This document shows, in pieces, positions 26,287-28,886 of a stretch of 48,188 bases of DNA. Position 1 is the first letter of the stretch, and the number at the start of each line of letters is the position of its first letter. The stretch lies in the NCBI GenBank assembly GCA_014384345.1, contig JACNGB010000031.1:1-48188 (forward strand), read 5' to 3'. The notes beneath the pieces are model-generated. The model saw nothing but the letters and a program-made list of their open reading frames with translations, made no database searches and was not told the DNA's origin. Source of the stretch: Candidatus Thioglobus pontius (GTDB lineage Bacteria; Pseudomonadota; Gammaproteobacteria; PS1; Pseudothioglobaceae). A program made the position numbers and the translations under genes.

Positions 26287-27132
26287 TTTAAGGATCGGAG
26301 AAGTGTTTATTGCTTTCGCTGTAAAACTCATCCATTTTTCTGGTATTTTTTTTAACGCTACCAGAGCATCTTTCTCATTGGCAAATTCGGCAAATACGCA
26401 GCTACCTGTGCCGCTCATTCTTGCTTGTCCAATCAAGTTAGAACATGAATCTAAGTGTTCTAAAGCAAGTCTGATTTCATCGGTTTGCGCGATTGCCGCT
26501 TGCAAACAATCATTATGAGTGTTTGTTAGCTCAGAGAAGTCGGATATTTTCCCTATCATTGGACTCATTGTCAATGCTTTGTGCGAGAAAATTTCTTGAG
26601 TGGAAGTGTGTTGATTAACAAACACCACCAAAAACACATGATTTGGCGTTTTTATCGGGCTTAATATTTCACCCACGCCTTCGGCCCAAGCGCTTTTTGC
26701 ATTAATAAAAATAGGTACGTCAGCGCCTAGTGATAGACCTAGTTGCATGAGTTCTGATTGACTTAATTCAGTTTTCCATAATTGATTCAGGGCAACCAAG
26801 GTGGTGGCCGCATCAGAAGAGCCACCACCCAGTCCGCCACCTGCAGGAATACGTTTAAGAATAGAAATATTGGCCCCAAGCGAGGTTTGAGTGGTTTCTT
26901 GCAACAGTTTAGCAGCGCGAATAATTAAGTCTTGTTCAGGGTTAACTTCTTCATTGCCTGATAAGCGTTTAATGGTGCTATCATTAGTGATGTCAAAGGT
27001 TAGTTCGTCGTAAAAATCGAGCAGTTGAAAAATGGTTTGCAGATTATGGTAGCCATCTTTGCGTTTGGAATTAATATGCAAAAACAGGTTTATTTTTGCT
27101 GGAGCCAGCCACGTTTTGACAGGGCTAGACAT
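26266..27132 (-). CDS. ispE: 4-diphosphocytidyl-2-C-methyl-D-erythritol kinase
   Basis: 288 aa. GHMP-kinase motifs: [11 protein letters not shown] at the start, [16 protein letters not shown] (about residues 90-105) for ATP binding, and [12 protein letters not shown] near the end. It is a step of the MEP isoprenoid pathway. The last six codons (WAVAKR) and the stop lie inside the tRNA-Gln gene: TAA is in the D-arm region. The start overlaps orn by 8 bases. Confidence 0.95.
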
Positions 27133-27667
27133 CTATAAACACATCTTGGTAATATTTTAATTCATTAATTGAATCACGAATGTCAGCCAAGGCTAAATGG
27201 GCAGGCTCACCATCACGAATTAATTTAGATTCCGGCTTCCAACGTACCAATAATTCTTTTAGGGTGGTGACATCAATATGACGATAGTGGAAGAATTTTT
27301 CTAATTCTGGCATGTAGTTGTACAAAAAGCGTCTGTCTTGGCAAATGGTATTGCCACACATTGGTGAGGCGCCAGCTTCAACATATTGCTGTAAAAATTC
27401 AATGGTTTGTTTTTCGGCGTTTCTGGTGGAAATAACACTGTCTTTGACACGTTGAGTTAAGCCAGAATTACCATGGTGCTCGGTATTCCACTCATCCATA
27501 CCGGCCATAATTTCACTGCTTTGATGAATAACCAATGAAGGGCCTTCGGCTAAAATATTAAGATCTTTGTCAGTAACAATGGTGGCGATTTCGATAATAA
27601 CGTCCTGTTCAGGCAACAGGCCAGTCATTTCCAAATCAATCCAAATTAGATTCGTATCTTTATCCAT
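27125..27667 (-). CDS. orn: Oligoribonuclease
   Basis: 180 aa. DEDDh exonuclease residues are visible: [10 protein letters not shown] (Asp12, Glu14 region), [14 protein letters not shown], and [17 protein letters not shown] (His and Asp of motif III). It degrades 2-5 nt RNA fragments to mononucleotides and is usually essential in gammaproteobacteria. AAAGGA 9-10 bases before the ATG lies in the end of the long inverted repeat described at 27672-27863. Confidence 0.97.
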
Positions 27668-27671
27668 TTAA

Positions 27672-27863
27672 TGAGTCCTTTGTATAGATATGAGTGATAA
27701 GCAAAGTATTAAATTTTACCGAATTGATTATTTTTTTAAAGTTTGCTTTAGTAATTCTAAGGCTGGCTTGAAAAAAATAATCAAGTTGGTGAAAGTTGGT
27801 GTTCCCCCCCTCAAGAGGGGATTGAAAAGAATGATGGTTATTCATATTTATATAAATGACTCA
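27672..27863 (+). repeat. Long imperfect inverted repeat filling the trpD-orn gap; candidate + strand structured RNA
   Basis: Centre at 27754. The inner arms 27705-27751 and 27757-27803 pair without any gap: 34 Watson-Crick, 9 G-U and 4 mismatched pairs, including a 14-bp perfect core (TTGATTATTTTTTT, 27724-27737, with 27771-27784). After a 27-base insertion in the right arm (27804-27830, a CCCCTC-aa-GAGGGG minihairpin plus ATTGAAAAGA), the outer arms 27672-27704 and 27831-27863 pair again: 24 Watson-Crick, 5 G-U, 4 mismatched. All wobbles are G-U as + strand RNA; no A-C pairs were found. Two short ORFs on opposite strands are by-products of the symmetry. Confidence 0.8.
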
Positions 27864-27866
27864 CTC

Positions 27867-28886
27867 TTAGCAACCTGTTGATTCACGCACAAAATCATCT
27901 AATTTTTGATGTGCCGAGCCTTTATTTAAAATTTCAATGGCCTTATTAATACCGTCTTGTAGTGAATCAGCCAATCCGCTAACATAAATGGCAGCACCTG
28001 CATTCATGGCAATGATATTTTTTGCAGCGCCTGGCTTTCCGTCAAGTGCCTGCTGAATAAGTACCAAAGAGCTGTCCGCATCTTCAGCCTTGATATCATC
28101 AAGACTACCCAGTGGTAAACCAAAGTCGGCTGGATTGATTGTGTAAGTGGTGACAACGCCATTATTTAGTTCAGCAACAAACGTATCATCAGCAATGGAA
28201 ATTTCATCTAAGCCATCGTTAGAGTGAACCACCATAACATGTGTTGAGCCAAGGCTTTTTAAGACATTGGCAATAGGTTCTACTAGGGCTTTGTCATAAA
28301 CACCCATGACTTGAGTGGGCGCTTTGGCAGGGTTAGTGAGTGGCCCAAGTACGTTAAAAATGGTTCTAACAGCTAGCTCTTTGCGCGGACCAATGGCGTG
28401 CTTCATGGCCGAATGATGAGCGGGCGCAAACATAAAGCCAACGCCAATTTTATCCACACTTTTGCTAATTTGTTCAGCGCTCATGTCTAAATTGACGCCA
28501 GCGGCCTCCAACACATCAGCGCTACCAGATTTTGAGGAAATTGAACGATTACCATGCTTGGCTACTGAGCCGCCTGCTGCAGCCACTACAAAGGCGCAAG
28601 CGGTAGAAATGTTAAATAATCCTAAGCCGTCGCCACCCGTACCGCACGTATCCACCAAGTGCTTAGTTTTCTTTACGCTAACCCCTTTGGCTAATGAACG
28701 CATAACTTTTGCACTCGCAGTGATCTCTTCAACCGTTTCTCCTTTCATCGAAAGCCCGACCAAAAAAGCACCAATTTGTGCATCAGTGGTTTTGCCGGTC
28801 ATGATGTCGTTCATCACTGTGTGCATTTGAGTTTCGGTTAAGTCTTGCTTGGCAATAACTGCCTTTATGGCTTGTTGTATGTTCAT
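27867..28886 (-). CDS. trpD: Anthranilate phosphoribosyltransferase
   Basis: 339 aa. DTCGTGGDGLGLFNISTA (about 80-97) is the PRPP-binding glycine loop; KHGNRSISSKSGSADVLEA and HAIGPRKELAVRTIFNVLGPLTNP follow, with the metal pair in DGLDEIS. It makes phosphoribosyl-anthranilate in tryptophan synthesis and releases PPi. The start is 4 bases after the pepP stop. Neither trpE/G nor trpC lies beside it. Confidence 0.96.
   Translation of the reverse strand: MNIQQAIKAVIAKQDLTETQMHTVMNDIMTGKTTDAQIGAFLVGLSMKGETVEEITASAKVMRSLAKGVSVKKTKHLVDTCGTGGDGLGLFNISTACAFVVAAAGGSVAKHGNRSISSKSGSADVLEAAGVNLDMSAEQISKSVDKIGVGFMFAPAHHSAMKHAIGPRKELAVRTIFNVLGPLTNPAKAPTQVMGVYDKALVEPIANVLKSLGSTHVMVVHSNDGLDEISIADDTFVAELNNGVVTTYTINPADFGLPLGSLDDIKAEDADSSLVLIQQALDGKPGAAKNIIAMNAGAAIYVSGLADSLQDGINKAIEILNKGSAHQKLDDFVRESTGC

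Follow-up and report, generated by a model that had tools for sequence, protein, structure and literature searches.

The gap between trpD and orn on a contig of Candidatus Thioglobus pontius (the window, which is the whole analysed stretch of 48,188 nucleotides) is occupied by a single long hairpin, in which the departures from Watson-Crick pairing are G-U in the sense of the + strand and never A-C. Such one-sidedness raises the question of what has acted upon this sequence. A first-pass annotation, made from the letters alone, had offered several answers: selection on a folded + strand RNA (possibly a local antisense transcript of trpD's 3' end, or a control of orn), a repeat family that had spread in that form, or strand-biased C-to-T change. 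Its arm coordinates and pair counts proved exact on recount (Table 1), with the whole hairpin comprising 58 Watson-Crick pairs, 14 G-U, no A-C and 8 other mismatches; in the inner arms these others are three A/G and one T/T, with no A-C among them. Its description of the hairpin as the whole trpD-orn gap is slightly off, as the element takes up 190 of 199 nt.

Folding of positions 27660-27875 on both strands gave -74.3 kcal/mol for the + strand (z -8.5, with none of 200 shuffles as good) and -48.2 kcal/mol for the - strand (z -4.5), and thus the stronger structure lies on the + strand. In a two-sided binomial test the 14:0 split of G-U and A-C gives p = 0.00012, although much of the pattern belongs to a repeat family, so that the 14 sites do not amount to 14 separate tests of selection on this copy.

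Table 1. Features of the trpD-orn region of the window (WC, Watson-Crick pairs)
Feature	Position	Strand	Basis or detail
orn (oligoribonuclease), downstream neighbour	27125..27667	-	ORF list; name from the first-pass annotation and from synteny with trpD in ten congeners
Outer 5' arm	27672..27704	+	Pairs with 27831-27863; 24 WC, 5 G-U, 4 other, no A-C; recount
MITE copy (161-bp family; 190 bp here)	27673..27862	+ (the family's foldable strand)	Aligns with family copies; site empty in congeners
Left terminal inverted repeat, GAGTCCTTTGTATAGATA	27673..27690	+	3 mismatches to GAGACCTTTGCATAAATA; complement gives AAAGGA upstream of orn
Inner 5' arm	27705..27751	+	Pairs with 27757-27803; 34 WC, 9 G-U, 4 other; recount
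Inner 3' arm	27757..27803	+	Partner of 27705-27751
27-base insert, with a C-rich/G-rich stem of its own	27804..27830	+	Copy L051 has a related insert at this point
Outer 3' arm	27831..27863	+	Partner of 27672-27704
Right terminal inverted repeat, degenerate	27845..27862	-	Sequence; family alignment
trpD, upstream neighbour	27867..28886	-	ORF list; name from the first-pass annotation and from synteny with orn in ten congeners

Judged by its sequence and that of its relatives, the trpD-orn hairpin is one aged copy of a dispersed 161-bp MITE rather than a local regulatory structure, and the ‘repeat family’ option was the right one: the element is dispersed, its orthologous sites are empty and its young copies carry target duplications. 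Classification as a MITE follows from fixed terminal inverted repeats in many copies, target site duplications (TSDs), filled and empty sites, and a short length with no transposase gene. The ends read GAGACCTTTGCATAA...TTATGCAAAGGTCTC, and most copies of the element are 161 bp long, running GAGACCTTTGCATAAATA...TATTTATGCAAAGGTCTC. A DNA search of 83 genomes of the bacterial family to which the window belongs, thiotrophic gammaproteobacteria of SUP05 type, found matches in 43, several of them multi-copy, although chance may account for a number of the weaker ones (the order-level search covered the same 83 genomes); the good matches start and stop at the same points as the window hairpin. Hosts identified by an exact-pattern scan of named genomes include Bathymodiolus thiotrophic gill symbionts, Ca. 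Thiodubiliella endoseptemdiera and Ca. Ruthturnera. In some of the Bathymodiolus thiotrophic symbionts there are roughly 150-300 end pairs per genome (forward/reverse end counts of 303/305 in G050, 226/248 in G053, 176/177 in G059 and 155/143 in G060, for a pattern that allows up to two mismatches, a few of the hits coming from full-length IS elements that share these ends). A perfect 5-bp TSD flanks 48 of 72 copies sampled in G053 and G050 (400 kb per genome). The copies sampled from G050 are mostly near-identical, which points to a recent burst.

A further copy lies in the window's own genome (G000:C15:53478-53638), 80% identical to the consensus and with the near-matching flanks TTGAA and TTTAA. 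In family orientation it has 12 G-U and 5 A-C (L357, about 1500-1661), and it sits just upstream of an open reading frame beginning ATGAAAAAAATCACTAAAGTT. The element had no match in the phage collection, its end pattern had none in the viral contigs, and a literature search found no paper on MITEs in these symbionts.

At the trpD-orn locus itself, the orthologous gap lacks the element in 10 of 10 congeners holding both genes, with the two genes about 8-15 nt apart; in the nearest congener (G069), orn and trpD are 98% identical and the gap reads TAA GGTAAATC ATG. Given these empty gaps, the window hairpin would most simply be an insertion later than the split from G069. The insertion parted a closely spaced gene pair, and AAAGGA in the element's end falls 8 nt ahead of the orn start, which agrees with the earlier placing of a putative orn ribosome binding site within the end of the arm. 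Any effect on orn would be incidental, with the element splitting a short gap and providing a ribosome binding site. Because no target duplication is recognisable around the window copy, and its genome yielded no transposase match, this copy is probably old and immobile. Only short mechanical open reading frames, of 61 and 63 aa, span it, and scans for promoters and terminators found nothing clearly above chance at the element.

A plausible source of mobility is found in IS5-family elements of 1243-1284 bp that have the same GAGACCTTTGCATAA ends as the MITE (full-length examples are 1284 bp in G050, 1266 bp in G044 and 1243 bp in G052). Their transposase domains, PF05598 and PF01609, score above cut-off; NF033581 (IS5-family) is the best NCBIfam model, with each half below its curated cut-off. 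One full-length element has the TSD CATTC and another AATAA, and G044 has 34 matches to the IS5-type transposase. Since MITE and full-length IS have only about 15 bp in common, the former is evidently not simply an internally deleted copy of the latter; the shared ends suggest that an IS5-family transposase mobilised it in trans. In one element (L327, G050:C1:13058-14341) the IS5-type transposase extends over two overlapping frames, a sign of either programmed frameshifting or decay; in many of the G044 copies there is just one frame, of about 353 aa.

The pairing asymmetry is a property of the family as a whole. For an alignment of 24 divergent copies (A1), the alifold consensus reaches -61.3 kcal/mol on the + strand and -5.0 on the - strand; 93.5% of cells at paired positions are paired, against 88.4% in shuffles, and 28 pairs are changed on both sides, against 14.1. 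On each of five measures the observed value lies beyond all 500 shuffles; kinship can beat shuffles without structure, and a fold derived from the same sequences favours itself, but the more trustworthy measures, of pair count and pair type, likewise exceed every shuffle. A covariation test, of the kind proposed with the first-pass annotation, came out in favour of compensatory change on the + strand fold, and covariation on one strand, as looked for in a structured RNA, is present. When G-U and A-C were treated alike in a hairpin alignment, the 50 copies other than the window copy summed to 501 G-U and 101 A-C, and each of five multi-copy subfamily consensuses had 8-16 G-U and 0-1 A-C in the same orientation. 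Equal numbers of A-C and G-U departures, or a loss of conserved pairing, had been named as outcomes that would count against selection, and neither is what the other copies show. A single position illustrates the pattern: the states of pair 46-115 across copies are CG, TG and TA, with no CA. Divergent lineages keep their arms complementary through compensatory change, with G-U tolerated and A-C hardly ever, in one orientation. Three copies (L093, L399 and L402) have A-C over G-U as oriented; their pairing suggests that they were read in reverse, and once turned round they show the G-U excess of the family again.

Whether this reflects mutation or selection was addressed by comparing private and shared variants within four genomes. 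Changes seen in a single copy comprise 38 distinct G-U and 33 A-C departures, those in two copies 9 and 8, and those in three or more copies 25 and 15 (p 0.43 versus private); at this shallow, within-genome level, purging by copying is invisible. (A raw count of shared variants, 130 G-U to 47 A-C, was dropped as evidence, as it counts one event many times.) Fresh mutation is balanced, and single inserts show no sign of being kept foldable. Across the five consensuses, however, 18 pair positions have G-U and 2 have A-C, which differs from the private 38:33 at a Fisher p of 0.0035; these pair positions were taken from the RNA fold, which omits fixed A-C sites, and the even-handed hairpin alignment agrees in direction. 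Drift at the level of the copy (balanced) can hence be separated from change at the level of the lineage (one-sided), which suggests that the element itself has been selected to fold on one strand.

A control is provided by a second hairpin MITE, found in G031, of 268-317 bp and with the same GAGACCTTTGCATAA ends around a different interior (L383-L386 and L388). Its five copies (one of them a 105-bp deletion form), oriented alike, have 46 G-U and 34 A-C (p = 0.22). It is less one-sided than the 161-bp family, with the qualification that the copies are few and were oriented by eye from their end sequences, and that the Fisher comparison takes related copies as independent. Given a MITE with these ends and no clear bias, neither general mutation nor mobility via the shared ends alone readily accounts for the bias of the 161-bp family.

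The account that we consider probable is that the trpD-orn hairpin is an old MITE copy, that the family's propagating lineages have been selected to fold on one strand, and that effects at orn are incidental. Selection would act between rounds of copying, in that lineages with a foldable + strand propagate, or are tolerated, better than others. The suggestion of selection on a folded + strand RNA thus stands at the level of the family, through covariation and the excess of G-U over A-C; its ‘RNA’ is the part that cannot be separated from single-stranded DNA. The folded molecule would most likely be an RNA from the + strand, given that other bacterial MITEs yield transcripts with long stem loops, some of them subject to RNase III cleavage or with an effect on mRNA stability. 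It might, for instance, be a substrate of RNase III or be shielded from decay, as reported for such MITEs. A stronger proposal, which we put forward tentatively and at rather less than even confidence, is that this is a bacterial DDE-type MITE whose copying success depends on a hairpin RNA (or single-stranded DNA) folded from one defined strand.

The alternative that fares best keeps selection on the fold and changes the molecule: a single-stranded DNA intermediate of replication or transposition. It is unlikely. G-T pairs hold in DNA, DNA folding too favours the + strand (-34.1 versus -20.9), and REPIN hairpins, which are thought to move as single-stranded DNA, show compensatory change (PMC3116915), but terminal inverted repeats, TSDs and IS5-type DDE relatives suggest a double-stranded route (on general knowledge of DDE transposases), and the sibling MITE has the same ends without a clear bias.

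Strand-biased mutation with no selection on the fold (such as C-to-T on the + strand, for instance through transcription of the source copies) would produce G-U over A-C in one orientation, and source copies could have been transcribed one way. It is nevertheless improbable, and the C-to-T option of the first-pass annotation loses ground with it: balanced private changes (38:33) argue against such mutation, as they do against selection on individual inserts, and the private + strand changes lean towards G>A (41) over C>T (19). The sibling hairpin MITE, at 46:34 with the same ends, points the same way, and double compensatory changes occur in an excess that bias alone does not make.

Inheritance from a single founder that chanced to hold G-U pairs, passed to all copies with no later selection, likewise has a low probability, even though core G-U positions are common to the subfamilies and the 14:0 of one copy would then be a single draw. 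Other G-U positions are not common to them, so part of the excess arose separately, although shared ancestry means that the G-U sites of the subfamilies are not all independent. The subfamilies differ elsewhere, too, by way of G-U (18 positions versus 2 with A-C in the five consensuses), and in 28 pairs both sides have changed.

It is very improbable that the hairpin is a regulatory RNA conserved in the trpD-orn gap, whether as an antisense to trpD's 3' end or as a control of orn, for all that it takes up the gap, covers the ribosome binding site of orn and has a strong fold. Ten congeners lack it there, which already contradicts an ancestral feature and led to the rejection of a cis-regulatory leader of orn. 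Elsewhere the copies have unrelated surroundings and a mixed orientation to flanking genes, 29 being sense and 38 antisense (p 0.33, with genes taken from crude ORF calls), and the lack of a preferred orientation argues against a general cis-regulatory role; the local antisense or orn-controlling RNA is left unsupported on both counts. Template switching in replication, which can produce multi-base compensatory changes in hairpins and keep arms complementary with no selection (PMC8794818), is scarcely credible as the cause, since the pairs that it restores would be Watson-Crick ones, with no one-strand preference for G-U over A-C, which would leave the asymmetry unexplained, and since single changes through a G-U intermediate are seen at pair 46-115.

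The usual picture of a bacterial MITE is of a passive leftover that a transposase carries in trans. If selection of the 161-bp family for a one-strand fold is borne out, a nucleic-acid structure beyond the ends of a MITE would be under selection, with fixed G-U and scarcely any A-C in each subfamily examined while inserts drift evenly. Present in hundreds of copies per mussel-symbiont genome, the family would then allow selection on an RNA or single-stranded DNA within a miniature transposon to be put to the test. Setting private against fixed G-U and A-C changes is a simple procedure that could serve for other MITE families too; no such contrast was found in the papers searched.

Among known systems, the family resembles the GAGACCTTTGCATAA-ended IS5-family elements and their derived MITEs in its terminal repeats, 5-bp TSDs, intergenic spread and lack of a transposase in the small element. 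It differs from IS5-derived deletion MITEs in its interior, where a hairpin of nearly full length shows strand-specific covariation, and in sharing only those ~15 bp with the IS. ERIC/IRU, Correia/NEMIS and related MITEs are ~100-200 bp long and their transcripts are predicted to form long stem loops, some bacterial MITE transcripts being cut by RNase III or altering mRNA stability (PMC2229807, PMC10969869); they have TA termini, in place of GAGACC here, and other hosts, a distinction drawn from descriptions rather than sequence comparison. REPINs (PMC3116915) are likewise miniature elements whose hairpin has undergone compensatory change from copy to copy, but they are moved by RAYT and built of REP pairs, unlike an element with DDE-type terminal inverted repeats and TSDs. 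As far as PMC5896051 is relayed by PMC10969869, the QMITEs of Coxiella burnetii are similar as gammaproteobacterial MITEs with long stem-loop transcripts, and give rise to small RNAs, but have TSDs of 7-9 bp and other ends. An Rfam search returned only sub-threshold hairpin matches, none at gathering score; MIR6288 (RF03664), a long AU-rich hairpin, was rejected as an identity, since its weak match (34.5 bits versus a gathering score of 74) is best read as chance likeness between hairpins.

The insert at 27804-27830 may mark a subfamily, since copy L051, from G045, has a related insert there. Other insertions of ~30 bp are found near the hairpin tip in the family copies L080 and L095, which suggests that the tip tolerates insertions, and 35 bp across the 27-base insert resemble an IS-like repeat in G040 (L062-L065) that occurs at least 8 times in that genome.
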